A stretch of 64,000 nucleotides of DNA from contig QZKW01000035.1 in NCBI GenBank assembly GCA_003599885.1, positions 62,001 to 126,000 of the forward strand. Direction: 5' to 3'. The number at the start of each line of letters is the position of its first letter. Within the stretch, counting starts at the first letter, position 1. Positions 45,793 through 53,920 of the stretch are shown here, in pieces. The position numbers were made by a program, and so were the translations under genes. The stretch is from Desulfobacteraceae bacterium. Lineage in GTDB: Bacteria; Desulfobacterota; Desulfobacteria; Desulfobacterales; Desulfosalsimonadaceae. Below the pieces are notes generated by a model. That model saw only the letters and a program-made list of their open reading frames with translations, searched no databases and was not told the origin of the DNA.

Positions 45793-46887
45793 ATGCAGCC
45801 CATAAAAATTGGCATTATCGGCACCGGGAATTGTGCAAGCTCGCTGCTTCAGGGAATCGAATATTATCGGCACAAGTCAAAAGAAGACTCCATCGGTCTG
45901 CTATACTGGGAGATCAACGGATATCAACCTTCAGATATTGTTGTATCGGCGGCATTTGATATTGATCAGAGAAAAGTCGGCAAGGACGTTCATGACGCCA
46001 TTTTTCAGCCGCCGAACTGCACCCTGAAATTCGCCGAAAACATGCCGTCCGCAAACGTCACCGTATCAATGGGCGCAATTTTAGACGGGTGTGCGGATCA
46101 TATGAAAAATTATGATGAACAATACACCTTTATGCCGAGCGATCAGCCAGAGCCGGACAAAAATAAAGTCATTGAAATCCTGAAAAGTTCCGGCACGGAA
46201 ATATTGTTGAATTATCTGCCGGTAGGGTCGGAAAAAGCCACCCGGTTTTATGCGGACTGTGCGGTTGAGGCCGGGGTTGCCTTGATTAACAACATCCCGG
46301 TATTTATTGCAGGCGACCCGGAATGGGCGAAAAAGTTCAAAAAAGCCAAAATCCCGATCATCGGCGATGATATCAAATCCCAGATGGGGGCCACCATCAT
46401 TCACCGTTCCCTGGTGAATCTGTTTGCCAGACGGGGCGTGAAAATCGACCGCACCTATCAGCTGAATACCGGCGGCAATACGGATTTTTTAAATATGAAG
46501 GATACAACGCGGCTGCTTTCAAAAAAACAGTCCAAAACCGAAGCTGTCAAAGCGGTCATGAGAGAAACAACGGATGACCGGAATATCCATATCGGCCCCA
46601 GCGATTATGTTCCCTGGCTTAATGACAACAAAGTGGCGTTTATACGAATGGAAGGCCGGATCTTCGGCAATGTTCCCATGAATCTGGAACTGAGGTTGTC
46701 GGTTGAAGATTCTCCGAATTCCGCCGGGGCAGCCATTGACTGCATCCGGTTATGCAAACTGGCCCTGGATCGGGATCTCGGCGGGGTGCTTGAGGCGCCG
46801 TCGGCTTTATACTGCAAACGGCCGCCGGTTCAATACACGGATGACGTCGCGTTTTCCATGATCGCAGAGTTTATCTCAGGTGATTGA
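45793..46887 (+). CDS. ino1: Inositol-3-phosphate synthase
   Basis: A 364-residue enzyme of the short actinobacterial/archaeal type. The NAD-binding start is IKIGIIGTGNCASSLLQGIEYY, followed by INGYQPSDIVVSAAFDIDQRKVGKDV and the core IPIIGDDIKSQMGATIIHRSL...LNTGGNTDFLNM with the catalytic lysines. It converts glucose 6-phosphate to 1L-myo-inositol 1-phosphate (D-3-phosphate). The histidine phosphatase gene overlaps its end by eight bases. In actinobacteria this product feeds mycothiol and phosphatidylinositol synthesis. Confidence 0.95.
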   Translation: MQPIKIGIIGTGNCASSLLQGIEYYRHKSKEDSIGLLYWEINGYQPSDIVVSAAFDIDQRKVGKDVHDAIFQPPNCTLKFAENMPSANVTVSMGAILDGCADHMKNYDEQYTFMPSDQPEPDKNKVIEILKSSGTEILLNYLPVGSEKATRFYADCAVEAGVALINNIPVFIAGDPEWAKKFKKAKIPIIGDDIKSQMGATIIHRSLVNLFARRGVKIDRTYQLNTGGNTDFLNMKDTTRLLSKKQSKTEAVKAVMRETTDDRNIHIGPSDYVPWLNDNKVAFIRMEGRIFGNVPMNLELRLSVEDSPNSAGAAIDCIRLCKLALDRDLGGVLEAPSALYCKRPPVQYTDDVAFSMIAEFISGD

Positions 46888-47521
46888 TATTGCTGAAAAA
46901 AACATCACCCACATCTCCCTTGTCCGTCACGGTCATGTAAAAAATCCCGATGATATTTTCTATGGGCGTCTTCCGGGGTTTCAACTGGATAGTAACGGGC
47001 GCGCGGAAGCGGCCCGGGCGGCTGAGGCGCTTAAAACCAGCCGGCTTGACGGTGTCTACAGCAGTCCGCTGCTCCGCACCCGCCAGACGGCAGTTGAAAT
47101 TCTTAAATTTCATCCCCATCTGAAACTAAAAACATCGTCCCTGATCACGGAAGTTTTCACGGTGTTTCAGGGTCAGCCGAGCAACATGCTGGCGCCTTAT
47201 GCCTGGGACGTTTACGCCGGGAAAGATCCGGAATACGAACAGCCTGAAGATGTGATGAAGCGTGCGAACAAATTTATCCGGCGCATTCGAAAACGGCATT
47301 TTGGGCGGCATGTGGTTGTGGTCACTCATGGGGATGTAATCCTGTTTGCCATTTTTCAGGCAAACAAGATTCCCGTCACTGCGGCAAATAAAATAAATTT
47401 AAATGAATTGGGCGTCCTTAAAAATTATCCGGCAACCGGGTCCATCACCACGCTGACTTATCAGACCGCTGACATGGAAGAATTCCCAACCGTGTCTTAT
47501 TCGGCTCCTTCAATAAAATAG
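46880..47521 (+). CDS. Histidine phosphatase (phosphoglycerate-mutase superfamily)
   Basis: 213 residues from a GTG inside the end of ino1. The catalytic motif is LVRHGHV (His 17), with YGRLPGFQLDSNGRAEAARAAEAL, SSPLLRTRQTA, and the second His in VVVTHGDVI. These are phosphatases or mutases of small phosphate esters. Translational coupling to ino1 makes an inositol phosphate or glycosyl-inositol phosphate a likely substrate, the step for which the mycothiol pathway enzyme (MshA2) has not been settled; this is inference. Confidence 0.88.
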   Translation: MIDIAEKNITHISLVRHGHVKNPDDIFYGRLPGFQLDSNGRAEAARAAEALKTSRLDGVYSSPLLRTRQTAVEILKFHPHLKLKTSSLITEVFTVFQGQPSNMLAPYAWDVYAGKDPEYEQPEDVMKRANKFIRRIRKRHFGRHVVVVTHGDVILFAIFQANKIPVTAANKINLNELGVLKNYPATGSITTLTYQTADMEEFPTVSYSAPSIK

Positions 47522-47528
47522 CCGCCCC

Positions 47529-48224
47529 TCAATACGGGATTTTCACCTGATGAAATCCCTCCGCATAAGTAAACCCGGTAGCCTCGGCCATCTCCCGGCA
47601 TTTATGTTTGATCCAGGCTTCAACATTTTCAGCCCCCATGGAAGCCATCTGACTTGTATGGCAGAACAACGCCGCCAGTTTGGTGTCCATGAATCCCGTG
47701 ATATCAAGCCGCAGATTGATATCTTCCGATCCCCAGAACCAGATTTCCTTTACCTTGTGCGGCAGAATGCCTTCTTCCATCAAATCCGGGTATGCCATGT
47801 GGTCCCTGGCATAGGGGAAGACGGCATCGAGGGTCACCTGACCGGTGATACGGTGGTCCCGGTGCCAGATGTATTTCCGGTAAGGGTCTGAAGTAACGAT
47901 GATATCGGGCCGGTAGAGCCGAATCATGCGGACAATATGCTTCCGGAAATCCGGCGTGTCCTCCAGGCCCTGGTCCGGGTACCTTAAAAACTCGACTTCA
48001 TGGACTCCCAGGCGAGCGGCAGCCTGGCGCTGTTCTTCCTCGCGAATCTGCGCAAGCTGCTGCGGTTTCATGTCCGGATCACTGCTGCCTTTGTCGCCGT
48101 TGGTGCAAATAACATAAACCACCTGCTTTCCGTCCGCCGTCCATTGGGCGACCGATCCGGCAACGCCGAATTCCGCATCATCCGGATGGGCGGATATAAT
48201 CATATAGTCAGCCTTGGTTTTCAA
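47529..48224 (-). CDS. PIG-L/LmbE-family deacetylase (MshB/BshB-like)
   Basis: About 231 residues from a TTG with GGGAA six bases upstream. Zinc motif SAHPDDAEFG near the N-terminus, NGDKGSSDPDM, SDPYRKYIWHRDHRITGQ with the HxDH zinc histidine, and HTSQM near the end. The family removes acetate from GlcNAc attached to inositol (MshB, PIG-L) or malate (BshB). It follows the MshA-like gene on the same strand, so GlcNAc-inositol is a natural substrate. The assignment to a thiol pathway is inference from neighbours. Confidence 0.88.
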   Translation of the reverse strand: MKTKADYMIISAHPDDAEFGVAGSVAQWTADGKQVVYVICTNGDKGSSDPDMKPQQLAQIREEEQRQAAARLGVHEVEFLRYPDQGLEDTPDFRKHIVRMIRLYRPDIIVTSDPYRKYIWHRDHRITGQVTLDAVFPYARDHMAYPDLMEEGILPHKVKEIWFWGSEDINLRLDITGFMDTKLAALFCHTSQMASMGAENVEAWIKHKCREMAEATGFTYAEGFHQVKIPY

Positions 48225-49470
48225 ATCTGTTTCCCTTCGTAACCTTTTGATATTCTGCAAGCATTAATTTTGCCGTATTTTTCCATGAGTAATCCAGAAC
48301 AGACGCCCGGATCTGGTTGGGATTGAATCGTCCCTGCCGCTGGCTGTCTGCAACTTTGATAATCGCTGCCGCCATTGCCTTGTCGGCGGGTTCTTCCAGA
48401 ACATATCCGTTGGTAGGGTTAATGATCTCCGGCAATCCGCCCACTGGAGCCGTCACAACCGGCGTGCCGCATGCCAGAGACTCCAGACCCGCCAGACAAA
48501 AACTTTCATGATAGGACGGCACCACCAGCATATCTGCGGCGCTGTAATACGCAGGCAAAAGCGCCTGGTCCTTCCGGCCCAAAAGCGCCACTGCCTTTTC
48601 AATATTTAAACCTCTGATAACGGATGGTAATTGTTCATTTTCATCATCCCCTCCGATGACCAGAAGTTTGAATCGGTGTTGATCCTGTTTAGCGTTATTA
48701 ATATGCGGCATGATTTTCAGCAACCGGTCCAGCCCTTTCACCGGCACATAGCGGCCCACGTAAAGCAGGAGCTGTTCTTTGCCATGCAACCCCAGTTTCC
48801 GGCGGGCGGCACTCTGATTCATCGGCTGAAACAATTCCAGGTTGACTCCGGCCGGAACAACGCCGATTTTTTCATTTTTCGCGTGATACAACGATATTAA
48901 TTCATGCGCCTCATTCCGTGTTGAGGCAATGATCCGGTCACAGGCCGCAGCCAGTTCTTTTTCCTGTTTAATGCGAAAATCTGGTTCCGACTCCTGCAAA
49001 CAGGCACGGTTTTTGACAGCGCCCATGGTATGAAATGTCGTTACATGCGGAATCCCTTGTATTTGCTTTATCTGATTCCCCAGGATTCCGGAAAGCCAGT
49101 AGTGGCTGTGGATCAGATCATAACGTAAGCTTTCTTTTTTCACTGTCTGATTAAAGGCTTGAAGGACTGCCGGTAAATAATCAAACAGATTCTCCTTGAA
49201 GATGAGTTGATCGGATTTGACGTTCAGGTTGATCAACCGGACATTGTTAAACAAAGAAATTATGGAAGGCGATGACTGAGTTTGACTTAAAGTGAACACA
49301 TCAACAAGGATTCCGAGATAGCCGAATTCTTTGGCCAGTTCCCGGATATACACACTCATGCCGCCGGTATCACGGGTTCCCAATTCGCCGGCGGGGCTGG
49401 AGTGAATACTAAGCATGGCAATTTTGTCAATATTCTTTGCGTCTGAAAATTTCTCATTCAATGGGGGCAT
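48208..49470 (-). CDS. GT4 glycosyltransferase, MshA-like
   Basis: A 420-residue GT-B glycosyltransferase. The N-terminus MLSIHSSPAGELGTRDTGGMSVYIREL is strikingly like MshA, which reads SVHTSP...GTGDAGGMNVYV and uses this loop to bind inositol phosphate. Donor-site motifs are LLYVGRYVPVKGLDRLL and PSYHESFCLAGLESLACGTPVVTAPVGGLPEI. MshA joins GlcNAc from UDP-GlcNAc to inositol phosphate. Sucrose-phosphate synthase-like GT4 enzymes also share part of this pattern. With ino1 and the deacetylase close by, an MshA-type role is favoured. Confidence 0.87.
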   Translation of the reverse strand: MPPLNEKFSDAKNIDKIAMLSIHSSPAGELGTRDTGGMSVYIRELAKEFGYLGILVDVFTLSQTQSSPSIISLFNNVRLINLNVKSDQLIFKENLFDYLPAVLQAFNQTVKKESLRYDLIHSHYWLSGILGNQIKQIQGIPHVTTFHTMGAVKNRACLQESEPDFRIKQEKELAAACDRIIASTRNEAHELISLYHAKNEKIGVVPAGVNLELFQPMNQSAARRKLGLHGKEQLLLYVGRYVPVKGLDRLLKIMPHINNAKQDQHRFKLLVIGGDDENEQLPSVIRGLNIEKAVALLGRKDQALLPAYYSAADMLVVPSYHESFCLAGLESLACGTPVVTAPVGGLPEIINPTNGYVLEEPADKAMAAAIIKVADSQRQGRFNPNQIRASVLDYSWKNTAKLMLAEYQKVTKGNRFENQG

Positions 49471-49488: not shown

Positions 49489-50493
49489 TTATTCTTTTAA
49501 GGCCAAGGTCAGCCGGTATAAGGTCACGGGCCGACCGCCCAATCGTTTTTTGTATGCTTCATCACCTTTTAAAAAATCATAGCAGGCCATTTTTTTTTCA
49601 ATAGCGTGTTTAATGCTGAAAATCTTTCCAAGGGATCCGGCGCTCAGATGTTTAAACTCCGGGTGATAGCCGTTATTGTATAAAAAGAGGGTATTTGCAT
49701 ATTCAAAACAAAGAGTGGATGCCGCAGCCTTTCCATCAATTCTCAGAAAACCGAGCTGCAGCATGTGCCTTTCGGCCATTGTTTTTGCCAGAGACTGGAA
49801 AAAAGACGTCATCTGAGCCGTTAAAAACTCCGACTTATCTTTCCGGCTTGCCTGAAATAAGGATAAAAATTCATTAAATGTATCGTCAACCGGCCCTTTG
49901 TTATTGAATACATGATAGTCAATTTGCCCCGCCTCATGAAGCCTTTTGATTTTTCTGCGCACCTCGTGACGCTGCCTGCAGCTTAAAAGGCCGAGATATT
50001 CTTCCCAGGTTTCCGGCAATTCCAGTTGATAATACCGGTCCACCGGCTCACAGATTAAATGATATCCCAATTTTTCAGCCGCTTTTGATAACCCGGCCAG
50101 GGCCGTTGAATCCGGGCGCAAGGCCCCGAGTTCGATGCGGCGGATATTCATTTTTTTCAAATAATCCAGAATCAAAGTAAAAAAGAGATCCGGACAGGTG
50201 TCTGTTAAAATCATGTCCTGATAATCGCAGACCGATTCACTGCCAAGGAATTTTGCCGTATGCCCGTCCAGCATGAACGGCGCAATGCCCAGCAATGTTG
50301 CGTCTGACCGGACAGCTAAAATCGCCGGTGTGTTACCCGCGCCGAACGCCTGCCACCAGGTTTTCAGCCAGAACGGCAGCACAAACAGGCAATTCCAGTT
50401 CAATCCATTGGATTGTTCGAGATAGGCCTGTTCGAGTTCTTCAAAGGACATGGAAGTGACACTGACAGAATTTTTATCGGGTCGCTCAGTCAC
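49489..50493 (-). CDS. FemAB/CelD-type GNAT-fold transferase
   Basis: 334 residues of the Acetyltransf_6/BioF2-like family. Landmarks: FVLPFWLKTWWQAFG, the central LSCRQRHEVRRKIKRLHEAG, and the late LGFLRIDGKAAASTLCFEYANTLFLYNNGYHPEFKHLSAGSLGKIFSIKHAIEKK. Related enzymes transfer acyl or aminoacyl groups, FemAB proteins taking amino acids from charged tRNA. It overlaps the S51-CysRS fusion gene by eight bases and follows it in the same operon. It could perform an acetyl or cysteinyl transfer in a thiol pathway; donor unknown. Confidence 0.8.
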   Translation of the reverse strand: MTERPDKNSVSVTSMSFEELEQAYLEQSNGLNWNCLFVLPFWLKTWWQAFGAGNTPAILAVRSDATLLGIAPFMLDGHTAKFLGSESVCDYQDMILTDTCPDLFFTLILDYLKKMNIRRIELGALRPDSTALAGLSKAAEKLGYHLICEPVDRYYQLELPETWEEYLGLLSCRQRHEVRRKIKRLHEAGQIDYHVFNNKGPVDDTFNEFLSLFQASRKDKSEFLTAQMTSFFQSLAKTMAERHMLQLGFLRIDGKAAASTLCFEYANTLFLYNNGYHPEFKHLSAGSLGKIFSIKHAIEKKMACYDFLKGDEAYKKRLGGRPVTLYRLTLALKE

Positions 50494-51748
50494 TGTTTTG
50501 TCTCATTTGCCATGTTTGCCCGTCTTTTGTGTCTTCCACAATGACATTCGCCTGATCCAGTATCTTTCTTATTTTATCCGCGTCCGGCCATCTTTTTTCC
50601 GTCCTGTAATCCGCCCGCAATTCAAGGAGCCGGGAAACCAAGGGTTCTATTACTGACTGGGCGCTGTCCGGCCGGGCTGCCATTTCAACCCCTAAAAGTA
50701 CGATCAGGTCGCGAAGAACTTCCCTTGCCTGGGTAATATTTTCTTCACTTTCCAGATTCCCCTGGGCCTTCCAGAGAGTGCTGTCCAAATCAAGTAACGA
50801 TTTGATCATTTTTTTGGCATCACGCGCATCCAGTCCTTCCCGAAAGGCGGTTTCAAGAAGATGAATGCCTTTCCAGAAATCGTTATCCTCGATATCAACT
50901 GCTTCGGTCGTTTCAATGGTGTTTCGGGAATTCATTCCTCCGGGAGCCTTCGAGAGCCCTTCCTGGAATAATTGCAGAGGAACGGTTTCCCCTTTGCCAA
51001 AAGACAGTTCCCGGCCTGACTGCCGGATGACGATATTGCCCAACCCCCTGATTTCGGCGGTTTGCGTTTCGAAATCCATAATGCAGGCAGTATGTTCATC
51101 CAACCCAACAATGAAGGTGTCATGGGGCAGCAGGGCTTCCAGTTTCTCAAAACGGGAGGCCCCCATATAGCAGAACCGCGTATCATGCGTCCCGCCTTCG
51201 GCATTGTTCCAGTGGGGAATCACCACCAGGTTCAGGCCAAAATGCGACAGGAGATCCAGGCCGTCAATCCAGTGAAGCGGCTGGCCCACTTTATAAATTT
51301 CATACACCGGCAGCGTGTGGCTCCCGACTGTCAAAGCGGCGGCGCTGGCGGCGGTCAGGCAGGCCCCTGATTCAAGCCGTTTGACAATAATGTCAGGGAT
51401 GTTTGATTGTTGCAAGTGTGATACCGTATACGTGGGGCTGCCGGGCCCGATTAAAAAGAAGTCCGCGTTTTTTAACTTGCGATAGGCGGTTTCGATCTCA
51501 AATTCGGTTGCAGTGTCTGCGGATTTAAATGATGCGATGGAAAGGGGGTGTTGGACATGATGGTGGAAATATTGCACGGCTTTTCTTGAAATTTCATCCG
51601 CATTGAGCTGAAAACCGGCCGGGGTATCCAGAAACACCGCTTCCGGTGAACCGCCCTGCCGGGAGAGCATCTGTTTATGAACATCCACCATGGTGGATGT
51701 CAGCTCTCCTGAGCCCATCAAAACAATCTGGCCCCTGGGTGAGGTCAT
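50486..51748 (-). CDS. S51-peptidase-like domain fused to CysRS-type C-terminal domain
   Basis: 420 residues. Residues 1-240 follow the S51 (cyanophycinase/dipeptidase E) fold: VLMGSGELTSTMVDVHK, FLIGPGSPTYTVSHL, GACLTAASAAALTVGSHTLPVYEIYKVG and IVGLDEHTACI. The nucleophile region keeps Ser but its flanking glycines are Ala. Residues about 290-415 match the C-terminal helical domain of cysteinyl-tRNA synthetase, with the ending ELRADYRTEKRWPDADKIRKILDQANVIVEDTKDGQTWQM typical of that enzyme. No HIGH or KMSKS catalytic motif is present, so it cannot itself activate cysteine. It is first in a minus-strand operon of transferase, glycosyltransferase and deacetylase. Confidence 0.85.
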   Translation of the reverse strand: MTSPRGQIVLMGSGELTSTMVDVHKQMLSRQGGSPEAVFLDTPAGFQLNADEISRKAVQYFHHHVQHPLSIASFKSADTATEFEIETAYRKLKNADFFLIGPGSPTYTVSHLQQSNIPDIIVKRLESGACLTAASAAALTVGSHTLPVYEIYKVGQPLHWIDGLDLLSHFGLNLVVIPHWNNAEGGTHDTRFCYMGASRFEKLEALLPHDTFIVGLDEHTACIMDFETQTAEIRGLGNIVIRQSGRELSFGKGETVPLQLFQEGLSKAPGGMNSRNTIETTEAVDIEDNDFWKGIHLLETAFREGLDARDAKKMIKSLLDLDSTLWKAQGNLESEENITQAREVLRDLIVLLGVEMAARPDSAQSVIEPLVSRLLELRADYRTEKRWPDADKIRKILDQANVIVEDTKDGQTWQMRQNSD

Positions 51749-51806: not shown

Positions 51807-52496
51807 TTACATTCTAAAGCCGTCAAGTCCGGGAGCATACGTGTCTTTCCTGTTTTTCCGGTACACCGTTGCCGAGCCCTTTCCATGGACATTCCATTGA
51901 TCGCTTCCCTGTTTCCGGATGATGCCGGTCTCCTCATCAATACCCACAATTGCCGCATCCGGCAACTGATTTTGAATTGTTTCAGTCCATTGTTTGCCGG
52001 TTTTCTCATGATGGGGAATCACAATCATATGGGGAAGAAGGTTCAGGCCGGGCTGAAGTTGTCTGTTTTCAGGATTCAAAAACCATTCACATAAAACCAT
52101 GGCGCCGGCGCTGCTGCCGGCCAAAATGGCCCCCCGGTGATATGCATCCAGAATGGCGGCCCAGCAGGCGCTTTCCCGCATGGTTTTTTCCAGATAACCG
52201 GGAAATCCGCCGAGAAGATAAATCAAATCGGCATTTGCCAGACTTTCGGCCAGTTGCCTGTCATTGGCGGAAGCGGCATCGATGATCGGCAGGCTTTGGA
52301 CATTTTTCACACCCAGGGACTGAAACCAGCGGACCCCGTTGTTCCCGGCATGTTCATGATTGTTGTCCGGAGCGGCGGCCGTGGGGATAATACAGACCGT
52401 CACTTCTTTTTTCCCGGTCAGGGCAATGGCCTGCCGGTCGGGTTCTGTCATGCGGCCCTGAAACTCAGCGCCTCCTGCCAGTAGAAGGCCTCCCAT
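51807..52496 (-). CDS. Cyanophycinase-like S51 peptidase
   Basis: 229 residues. LLLAGGAEFQGRM, CIIPTAAAPDNN, YLLGGFPGYLEKTM, and the nucleophile elbow GAILAGSSAGAMVLCEWF with both glycines intact; the likely catalytic His is in HMIVIPHHE and the acidic residue in IVGIDEETGI. S51 enzymes cleave beta-aspartyl or acidic dipeptides or cyanophycin. It lies directly upstream of the S51-CysRS fusion on the same strand. It may process a cysteine or aspartyl conjugate; substrate unknown. Confidence 0.87.
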   Translation of the reverse strand: MGGLLLAGGAEFQGRMTEPDRQAIALTGKKEVTVCIIPTAAAPDNNHEHAGNNGVRWFQSLGVKNVQSLPIIDAASANDRQLAESLANADLIYLLGGFPGYLEKTMRESACWAAILDAYHRGAILAGSSAGAMVLCEWFLNPENRQLQPGLNLLPHMIVIPHHEKTGKQWTETIQNQLPDAAIVGIDEETGIIRKQGSDQWNVHGKGSATVYRKNRKDTYAPGLDGFRM

Positions 52497-52678
52497 TTTA
52501 GCTGTCCTTTCGAAATTCAGGTCAAAATTTAAGGAGATAAAAAAACAGGGAATTGTTATTTTTCGTAAAACAGATACTATTATATCCGGTATGGTATGAA
52601 AATTTTAGTTGTTTGCGAAAACAGCAGGCATTGAAATTTTGCCGGAACAAATTTTTTAATGAGACATGCGAGGTGACC

Positions 52679-53920
52679 ATGAAGCAGAATGATATTATTG
52701 TTTATGGTGCGTATTGGTGCCCGGACTGCCGGCAGAGCAAACTGTTTCTGGGAGAACATCAGATTCCCTATCAGTGGGTGGACATTGAAGAAGATCCAAA
52801 GGCCGAACAGTTTGTTATCGAAAAAAACAACGGCAAGCGAATCATTCCCACCATTATTTTCCCGGACGGAACCGTATTGGTTGAGCCAACCAACGCCGAA
52901 CTGGCGGAAAAGCTCAATTTGAAAACCACTGCCAGGCACTCGCATTATGACCTGATTATAATCGGCGGCGGTCCGGCAGGACTGACCGCGGCCATATACA
53001 CGGCAAGGGAGGCCATTGACACCCTTGTCATTGAACAAGCGGCATTCGGCGGACAGGCCGCCGGCACGGAAAAACTGGATAATATGCCGGGCTTTCCGGA
53101 AGGGATATCCGGTATCGAATTTTCCGAACGGCTTCGTCAGCAGGCTGAGCGGTTCGGCGTGGAACTTCTGCAGACGCAATCGGTTGTAAAACTTTTTTCA
53201 AAAAACAACTACCGGTGCGTTGCCACAGGTGACGGCACTGTTTACAGCGCCAAAGCAATTATTATTGCCACCGGCAGCCGGTATAAAAAATTAAATGTCC
53301 CCGGAGAGAAGGACTTTCTCGGCGCAGGGGTGCATTATTGCGCCACCTGCGACGGACCGTTTTACAAAGGAAAACATGTGGCGGTGGTGGGCGGGGGCAA
53401 CAGCGCGACGGAAGAAAGCCTGCTGCTGACCAAATTTGCTGAAAGCGTTACCATACTGGTCCGGGAAAAAGAGTTTAACGCCACCCGGTTGATCCAGGAA
53501 AGTGTGCTGAGCCACCCGAAAATCAATGTACGATTTAACACAGAAGTGACTGAGTTCAAGGGTAAAAAATCAAAATTATCCAGATTGAAAATAATAAATA
53601 ATCAGACCCAAAAACAAGAAGAGCTCCCTGTAGACGGCGCATTTATTTTTATTGGACTGACTCCGAATACGAATTTTCTGAAAAAAGGCGAAATCCTTTT
53701 GAATGACTGGGGATTTATTGTTACCGGCCATGAATTGTCCCATGTCAGCCCCCGGCTTAAAGGGTATGCCAGCCGGGATCCTTCTCTTTTGGAAACCAGC
53801 CTCCCCGGTGTATTCGCCGCCGGAGATGTCAGGGACAGCAGCACCAAACAGGTGGTCAGCGCGGCAGGTGAAGGGGGAACCGCTGCCCTGCTGGTCCGGG
53901 AATACCTGAAACGGGTATGA
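52679..53920 (+). CDS. Mycoredoxin-like glutaredoxin fused to thioredoxin reductase
   Basis: 413 residues from the ATG at 52679, with GAGGTG five bases upstream. Residues 1-80 are a glutaredoxin fold with active site C14-P-D-C17 and the stretch NNGKRIIPTIIFPDGTVLVEPTNAEL, close to mycoredoxin-1 in layout. Residues about 95-413 are a TrxB-like FAD/NADPH enzyme: LIIIGGGPAGLTAAIYTARE, redox C221-A-T-C224, and VVGGGNSATEESLLL. It should pass electrons from NADPH to a disulfide through its own glutaredoxin domain. It is divergent from the S51 genes. Confidence 0.9.
   Translation: MKQNDIIVYGAYWCPDCRQSKLFLGEHQIPYQWVDIEEDPKAEQFVIEKNNGKRIIPTIIFPDGTVLVEPTNAELAEKLNLKTTARHSHYDLIIIGGGPAGLTAAIYTAREAIDTLVIEQAAFGGQAAGTEKLDNMPGFPEGISGIEFSERLRQQAERFGVELLQTQSVVKLFSKNNYRCVATGDGTVYSAKAIIIATGSRYKKLNVPGEKDFLGAGVHYCATCDGPFYKGKHVAVVGGGNSATEESLLLTKFAESVTILVREKEFNATRLIQESVLSHPKINVRFNTEVTEFKGKKSKLSRLKIINNQTQKQEELPVDGAFIFIGLTPNTNFLKKGEILLNDWGFIVTGHELSHVSPRLKGYASRDPSLLETSLPGVFAAGDVRDSSTKQVVSAAGEGGTAALLVREYLKRV

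Follow-up and report, generated by a model that had tools for sequence, protein, structure and literature searches.

The fusion protein and its two domains

What use might anaerobic bacteria of sediments have for the tRNA-reading end of a cysteinyl-tRNA synthetase (CysRS) when it is joined to a peptidase-like domain in place of the synthetase itself? The question is raised by an open reading frame (ORF) in a 64,000-nucleotide stretch of DNA from a Desulfobacteraceae bacterium (assembly GCA_003599885.1, contig QZKW01000035.1, positions 62,001 to 126,000 of the forward strand; hereafter the window), the product of which we call S51-CysC. A function is suggested by the surroundings of the gene, which as a whole make up a biosynthetic locus of mycothiol type, and the fusion very probably belongs to a pathway of that type for a low-molecular-weight thiol. 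Since a tRNA-reading part of CysRS sits in a thiol pathway for which we found no known cysteine-adding enzyme, the cysteine of the thiol may well come from charged tRNA, a reading to which we assign a probability of roughly 0.55.

The initial annotation had described the ORF at 50486-51748 as an S51-like N-terminus fused to the C-terminal domain of CysRS. The coordinates proved right and the strand had to be corrected to minus, on which the frame runs from an ATG codon at 51748 down to 50486; a plus-strand reading was ruled out by several stop codons. Both parts of the assignment were borne out. In Pfam, CysS_C (PF23493) scored 28.4 bits over residues 371-413, above its cut-off of 23, and Peptidase_S51 (PF03575) scored 20.3 bits over residues 8-200, short of the 23.9 required. 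When 70 homologues were combined into a profile, it matched a solved CysRS chain over residues 292-414 (E 9.3e-12) and a cyanophycinase-like peptidase over residues 5-258 (E 1.4e-9). The predicted model (mean predicted local distance difference test score, pLDDT, 85.1) matched S51 peptidase 6nqc (Z 26.9, root-mean-square deviation (rmsd) 2.5, 234 residues aligned) and cyanophycinase 3en0 (Z 23.9) in a fold search. Comparison of the model with CysRS, proposed with the annotation as a check, likewise brought out a CysRS-like C-terminus, residues 292-416 aligning with 1u0b (CysRS with tRNA-Cys) at Z 8.3 and an rmsd of 16.2 over 117 residues. We read the high rmsd as subdomains set at a different angle in the model, and the profile match is the firmer evidence for this region.

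The absence of a catalytic HIGH/KMSKS part, also claimed at the outset, agrees with what we found: the Pfam scan reported no synthetase-core family in the 420-residue protein, neither motif could be recognized by eye, and TIGR00435 aligned solely over its positions 342-464 of 466. A complete, normal CysRS is encoded elsewhere in the window genome (590 bits).

A scan of contigs gave 136 relatives, and the 80 loci that were kept all come from metagenome-assembled genomes (MAGs) by title, the titles naming Desulfobacterota/delta groups, Nitrospirae/Nitrospiraceae, Syntrophomonadaceae and other Bacillota. At 74 of these loci the query was matched over almost its full length, both parts in one match, and the remaining six end at contig edges. 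Because of this, and because the fusion is present in 22 of 147 genomes of the window's class, an assembly artefact or chance fusion was rejected; the joining of an S51-type domain to a CysRS C-terminus is real.

Conserved residues in the fusion family

An alignment of the window protein with those from 69 loci (70 proteins; of the 11 loci left out, 6 are cut at contig ends and 5 were missed by the start-finding pattern) placed most invariant residues in the S51 part, in motifs that include GSGE, TPAG, GPGSP, ASAA, PVYE.YKVG, IPHWNNAEG and DEH. Ser135, His179 and Glu218, which align with 6nqc, are invariant (70/70), the glutamate presumably being the third catalytic member as in cyanophycinase. 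Altered glycines around the nucleophilic serine had been noticed from the window alone, and the alteration proved to be general: the elbow reads AASAAA in the fusion vs GSSAGA in the S51 paralogue encoded next door, and A134-S135-A136-A137 occurs in 70/70, alanines replacing the glycines that flank the nucleophile of ordinary S51 enzymes. The fusion has neither a GxSxG-type elbow nor an S51 score above the Pfam gathering threshold.

The residues by which CysRS reads its anticodon could be followed into the tail. In the structure of E. coli CysRS with tRNA-Cys, G34 is hydrogen-bonded by Arg427 and Asp436, Trp432 stacks on it, and Arg423 with Asp436 makes a contact through water (PMC12684709). 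With the ungapped offset of 45 given by alignment with the E. coli enzyme, Arg423 corresponds to R378 (70/70), Arg427 to R382 (R 68, K 2), Trp432 to W387 (W 59, F 6, Y 5) and Asp436 to D391 (70/70). Retention of the G34-reading residues predicts, at the level of sequence, that the tail binds tRNA-Cys.

The neighbouring genes and their co-occurrence with the fusion

Downstream of the fusion gene, on the same strand and in one operon with it, lie genes for GNAT6 (a double-GNAT, Fem-like protein), an MshA-like glycosyltransferase and a PIG-L deacetylase; the genes for Ino1 and a histidine phosphatase converge on this run, and that for a glutaredoxin-thioredoxin reductase fusion diverges on the other side (Table 1). 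The glycosyltransferase scores under the cut-off of the MshA model (462.5 bits) and lower still with BshA (117.7), and it matches the solved chains 3c48 (E 1.6e-59) and 3c4q (E 2.1e-59), which we take to be MshA of C. glutamicum. We likewise take K78, Y110, T134 and R154 of MshA to be its inositol-phosphate contacts, for which we found no paper; the first three correspond to K92 (K 26, R 4, A 1, P 1 of 32), Y124 (32/32) and T148 (32/32) of the glycosyltransferase, and the last, after a two-residue gap is shifted, to R166 (32/32). The deacetylase scored 101.5 bits with BshB1, 84.4 with BshB2, 65.8 with Mca and 52.2 with MshB, all under the equivalog cut-offs, and the glutaredoxin-thioredoxin reductase protein 71.4 bits with the mycoredoxin model TIGR02200 (cut-off 89.5) and 328.2 with TIGR01292 (cut-off 343.45). 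The histidine phosphatase is a candidate for the enzyme that dephosphorylates N-acetylglucosaminyl-inositol phosphate (GlcNAc-Ins-P). This mycothiol-type character of the neighbourhood goes beyond what the initial annotation had observed.

Across the 147 class genomes, 22 contain the fusion (cut by a contig end in one, G012), other matches being to the CysRS tail only. GNAT6 at 300 bits or more occurs in 23, namely the 22 fusion genomes and G030; the glycosyltransferase at E 1e-80 in 22, namely G030 and every fusion genome except G012; and the deacetylase at E 1e-50 in 23, namely G030, G130 and every fusion genome except G049. The Fisher p values are 2.8e-25, 3.4e-23 and 3.8e-22, respectively. 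Calculated within families, the probability of so close a GNAT6 concordance by chance is 1.7e-7; collapsing the genera of two families raises it to 1.4e-5. Among the 22 fusion genomes 20 have Ino1, compared with 39 among the 125 others (p 1.4e-7). The gene set is patchy across the class, and none of the fusion, GNAT6, glycosyltransferase or deacetylase was found at these lines in four other genomes of the window's own genus.

A stronger test of co-occurrence is offered by genomes in which the fusion and GNAT6 lie apart. The fetched stretches of the 80 fusion loci, many of which are short contigs, hold GNAT6 at 41, the glycosyltransferase at 37 and the deacetylase at 30. Loci led us to 39 genomes (L015 was not covered), 36 of which had been picked because GNAT6 was outside the fetched stretch; GNAT6 is present in 31. 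The 28 Bacillota-type and distant delta genomes among these (G149-G176) have it in 22, once as a fragment; none was found in G151, G160, G163, G165, G171 and G174. In distant genomes the two genes are thus separate and mostly co-occur. GNAT6 keeps its own company there: the glycosyltransferase is within 1 kb at all 20 GNAT6 loci that were fetched (19 from G149-G176, one from G185), about 0.9 kb lying between the two in three cases, and the fusion is within the stretch only at the G185 locus. An ORF of about 0.8-0.9 kb, transposase-like by eye, separates GNAT6 from the glycosyltransferase at L101, L104 and L106.

The cysteine-adding step

Two published routes add cysteine in such pathways, that of BshC (PMC6282198) and that of MshC, a CysRS paralogue acting via Cys-AMP (PMC2922099, PMC9736012). 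BshC was found in none of the 147 class genomes (3 of 14 controls were positive), and MshC scored over its cut-off in none of 30 genomes, a set comprising the 22 class genomes with the fusion, G030, and 7 more to which loci had led (a single one of 14 controls passed it). Both were also sought elsewhere in the window genome and not found. No known enzyme is thus left here for the attachment of cysteine to the amino sugar.

The genomes do hold a further CysRS-like protein, in which a pyridoxal-phosphate (PLP) cysteine synthase is fused to a full CysRS-like part (CysK-CysRS; G000:C58:19668-22034 in the window genome; L084:1492-3861, minus strand). Its HIGH (NIEH) and KMSKS regions look altered or degraded by eye in the window genome. 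At least 126 of the 147 class genomes carry it (rows of at least 757 bits), 105 of them without the fusion, so that it does not track the pathway, and we rejected it as the missing ligase. It occurs also in G148 and G180, as judged by open-frame length. A CysRS without the anticodon domain is reported from a subgroup of Desulfobacterales (PMC9437257).

GNAT6, a Fem-like partner

The predicted model of GNAT6 (pLDDT 94.5) is closest in fold to FemX (6snr, Z 20.8, rmsd 4.0, 293 residues aligned), and the best 23 rows of the VIA-align comparison (Z 20.8-16.4) consist of FemX/FemA, Sba18/Sbb17, MprF-type domains and one uncharacterized protein. The structure titles of Sba18/Sbb17 give them as aminoacyl-tRNA-dependent peptide synthases complexed with streptothrisamine, which we take to be an amino-sugar compound. 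MshD aligned with the model at Z 14.3 and 13.5 (rmsd 5.0 and 5.5). Because no solved chain was matched in sequence up to E 10, the Fem likeness is one of fold and of the Pfam FemAB_like score, PF04339 being over its cut-off.

Residue conservation was read from alignments freed of rows with doubtful or long starts, which used 32 of 38 rows for GNAT6, 31 of 36 for the glycosyltransferase and 23 of 30 for the deacetylase, each with the window protein added. In GNAT6 a basic helix at 172-188 is conserved, with R175, H176, R180 and K181 in 33/33, and Tyr314-Lys315 is invariant. The latter pair may be the counterpart of Phe304-Lys305 in FemX, where we take Phe304 to be the partner position. FemX grips the tRNA acceptor stem with a positively charged helix and uses Lys305 (PMC12945691). 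The shared fold, as modelled, does not establish aminoacyl-tRNA as the donor of GNAT6.

Features of the window and associated genes

Table 1. Features of the S51-CysC locus, in coordinates of the window
Feature	Coordinates	Strand	Evidence
S51-CysC fusion (P0001), 420 aa	50486..51748	minus	ORF reading, Pfam, profile and fold matches, 80 homologous loci
S51/cyanophycinase-fold domain of the fusion, residues 1-262; Ser135, His179, Glu218	50963..51748	minus	fold search Z 27-16; positions kept 70/70
CysRS-like helical and anticodon-binding region of the fusion, residues 286-415	50504..50893	minus	Pfam, profile and structure matches
CysS_C within the fusion, residues 371-413	50510-50638	minus	Pfam
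Separate S51 peptidase-like protein, classic GSSAGA, 229 aa (P0002)	51807..52496	minus	PF03575 75.9 bits
GNAT6, double-GNAT Fem-like protein, 334 aa (P0003); 8-base overlap with the fusion gene	49489..50493	minus	PF13480 94.5 bits, PF04339 FemAB_like 32.8 bits
MshA-like GT4 glycosyltransferase, 420 aa (P0004)	48208..49470	minus	TIGR03449 MshA 290.9 bits
BshB/MshB-like PIG-L deacetylase (P0005), 243 aa if read from TTG; start codon uncertain	47529..48260	minus	PF02585 121.3 bits
Histidine phosphatase (P0006)	46880..47521	plus	PF00300 101.2 bits
Myo-inositol-1-phosphate synthase Ino1 (P0008); 8-base overlap with the phosphatase gene	45793..46887	plus	PF01658 126.1 bits
Divergent gene for a mycoredoxin-like glutaredoxin-thioredoxin reductase fusion (P0007); ATG 52679 is the likely start	52553..53920	plus	TIGR02200, TIGR01292
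Acetyl-CoA hydrolase/transferase and GNAT domain fused, 623 aa	54612..56483	plus	

Several further genes accompany the locus with varying regularity, as counted over 100 loci (80 with the fusion and 20 with GNAT6). The stretches of 10 of these include Ino1, those of 8 an inositol-monophosphatase-family gene and those of 7, all among the 80 fusion loci, a histidine phosphatase (one weak at 41 bits). Seven of the 22 fusion genomes (G000, G073, G095, G104, G117, G133, G134) have Ino1 within about 1 kb of the deacetylase or GNAT6. The P0002-type S51 protein stands upstream of the fusion at 13 of the 80 loci and could be a conjugate amidase of the system. The acetyl-CoA hydrolase/transferase-GNAT protein, found at 1 of the 80 fusion loci and 9 of the 20 GNAT6 loci and also beside the L009 cluster, is a putative pathway member that could acylate the thiol.

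At many loci (e.g. L003, L006, L009 and L018) a pair of Gfo/Idh/MocA oxidoreductases, which may modify the sugar or the inositol, is encoded between the fusion gene and GNAT6. The first, which is longer by about 200 aa at its N-terminus, is in the stretch at 27 of the 80 loci (27 also over all 100) and the second at 24. The window has no such pair between the two genes. Of the 100 loci, 22 (L006, L044, L094-L098, L100, L101, L103, L105, L110 and others) include in their stretch a gene for a metallo-beta-lactamase-fold protein some 210-240 aa long; this protein, glyoxalase II-like by length only, is possibly a thiol-dependent hydrolase. No dedicated tRNA-Cys gene was found in the window or in the 48 loci scanned, of more than 100.

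A proposed pathway and its alternatives

In the pathway that we propose, Ino1 would provide inositol phosphate, to which the MshA-like enzyme would add GlcNAc, and a phosphatase and the PIG-L deacetylase would convert the product to glucosaminyl-inositol (GlcN-inositol), the free amine of which would be joined to cysteine. Where the known pathways rely on MshC, an ATP-dependent ligase, or on BshC, the cysteine would here be drawn from Cys-tRNA-Cys, and the CysRS-derived C-terminus of the fusion would grip this tRNA at the anticodon. Because the S51 domain takes the place of the synthetase core in the chain, it would meet the charged 3' end, and the invariance of its active site suggests that it does chemistry there. 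Ser135 might then take the cysteinyl group as an ester and hand it to the amine of GlcN-inositol, for which cyclodipeptide synthases offer a precedent in their ping-pong use of aminoacyl-tRNA (PMC12945691). We put forward such direct transfer through a cysteinyl-Ser135 enzyme tentatively, and slightly favour it over the more doubtful possibility that the fusion presents Cys-tRNA to GNAT6 and that GNAT6 forms the bond. It is equally tentative to see in S51-CysC a new class of aminoacyl-tRNA-dependent amide synthase, that is, a CysRS in which the ATP-using core has been exchanged for a serine-hydrolase core. The initial annotation had suggested that the protein may bind tRNA-Cys in the service of the neighbouring transferase. 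This idea finds support, as far as sequences and predicted models go, in the conserved anticodon-reading residues, the Fem-like fold of the neighbour and the co-occurrence, and becomes the best-supported reading once the locus is recognized as a thiol pathway; the service to the transferase now stands as one of the two possible routes.

A number of observations weigh against a thiol built from Cys-tRNA. The product is predicted from genes of MAGs alone, and both the glycosyltransferase and the deacetylase score under the MshA, MshB and BshB equivalog cut-offs. A conserved domain is evidence of descent, not of tRNA binding. Tandem GNATs of the acetyl-CoA type follow directly on the Fem group in the fold comparison, from Z 15.4 down and at rmsd 4-7, only 1 below the lowest Fem-type row (Z 16.4), and a protein of family PF13480 may have this fold and yet not use tRNA. 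The co-occurrence in the class is partly one event, because 21 of the 22 fusion genomes carry the fusion and GNAT6 together on a single contig; the 300-bit threshold for GNAT6 was chosen once the list had been seen, and 6 further genomes have weaker GNAT6 matches of 76-122 bits at E 1e-20. Ino1 was not found in the fusion-positive genomes G112 and G119, nor GNAT6 in 8 of the 39 genomes reached through loci. Conversely, G030 (98% complete) has GNAT6, the glycosyltransferase and the deacetylase without the fusion, which reflects either an assembly gap or a variant pathway. Finally, CysK-CysRS provides a second CysRS-like protein in all 22 class fusion genomes, one copy being split by contig ends.

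This last point bears on the idea that some other member of the CysRS family, CysK-CysRS or a CysRS acting as MshC, activates the cysteine and leaves S51-CysC an accessory. The paralogy of MshC with CysRS (PMC2922099) and the presence of CysK-CysRS in every fusion genome of the class, and in G148 and G180, speak for such an activator, but its wide distribution beyond the fusion and the apparent decay of its signature motifs in the window genome do not, and 5 of the 7 genomes reached through loci (G154, G155, G158, G169 and G172), like G030, have only one CysRS-type protein at E 1e-20. We regard it as quite unlikely. The hydrolase fold itself invites the proposal that the fusion is an amidase acting, like Mca, on the finished thiol or its S-conjugates, with the CysRS tail serving only to recognize cysteine-containing or other ligands. 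In its favour, S51 is a family of peptidases, all 70 aligned proteins have the Ser-His-Glu positions and a second, classic S51 protein adjoins the fusion; yet the glycines of the nucleophile elbow are replaced in every sequence aligned, the anticodon-reading residues have been kept although an amidase would have no need of them, and the fusion follows the core biosynthetic genes nearly one to one in the class. An amidase, a reading that the initial annotation had also offered as cleavage of a cysteine conjugate, is an unlikely explanation, if the strongest of the alternatives.

A tRNA-Cys-type domain on a hydrolase fold would also suit the hydrolysis of an ester, so that the fusion might be a Cys-tRNA deacylase, or a sensor of tRNA charging that couples thiol synthesis to cysteine supply, and make no amide. 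We consider this improbable, since it would leave a near-perfect co-occurrence with biosynthetic genes in the class and still no MshC or BshC to carry out the ligation. Least probable of all is a pathway free of tRNA, in which GNAT6 would be an acetyl-CoA enzyme like MshD and the CysC tail would have been reused to bind protein or sugar. MshD catalyses the last step of mycothiol synthesis and is, like GNAT6, a tandem GNAT with some structural resemblance to the model, and other acetyl-CoA tandem GNATs come close behind the Fem group; Fem and aminoacyl-tRNA enzymes nevertheless match better, the fusion has conserved its G34-reading residues, and the searches for BshC and MshC left no other cysteine-adding enzyme.

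Relation to known systems

With mycothiol biosynthesis the locus shares an MshA-like glycosyltransferase, a PIG-L deacetylase, Ino1, a phosphatase, a tandem-GNAT protein and a mycoredoxin-like glutaredoxin-thioredoxin reductase. It differs in that S51-CysC, the Fem-like protein or both appear to take the cysteine step in place of MshC, and in its occurrence in groups other than Actinobacteria. The deacetylase, which scores best as BshB1, recalls bacillithiol biosynthesis, whereas no BshC was found in the 147 genomes and the glycosyltransferase is nearer to MshA than to BshA. Set beside CysRS and MshC, S51-CysC matches CysRS over residues 292-415 and has an S51 domain where a class-I synthetase core would stand. 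From cyanophycinase and peptidase S51 it has the fold and the Ser-His-Glu positions, and is set apart from them by AASAA at the GxSxG-type elbow, by strongly conserved loops around PVYEIYKVG and IPHWNNAEGG and by its tRNA-type tail.

GNAT6 resembles the Fem, MprF and streptothricin-type transferases in fold, double-GNAT layout, basic helix and Tyr-Lys pair; here, however, the anticodon-reading domain would come from a separate protein, and cysteine and a GlcN-inositol acceptor are predicted. Cys-tRNA is used outside translation also by TglB, a peptide aminoacyl-tRNA ligase of the PEARL type (PMC12945691), which is LanB-like and ATP-dependent and acts on a peptide scaffold. Our search of the open-licence literature found no paper on a fusion like S51-CysC or on any low-molecular-weight thiol made in a tRNA-dependent way, and a non-exhaustive literature search found no such thiol assigned to Desulfobacterota.

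The locus predicts a thiol for Desulfobacterota, Cys-GlcN-inositol or a derivative of it, and a route that differs from both known ones in that cysteine would arrive via charged tRNA and not by MshC or BshC. The pathway reading would also account for a protein that otherwise resembles a stray fusion. If it is true, the product would be, to our knowledge, the first thiol cofactor built from tRNA, the main thiol of bacteria in three phyla would be made from a charged tRNA, and redox buffering in these organisms would be tied directly to translation and tRNA charging.

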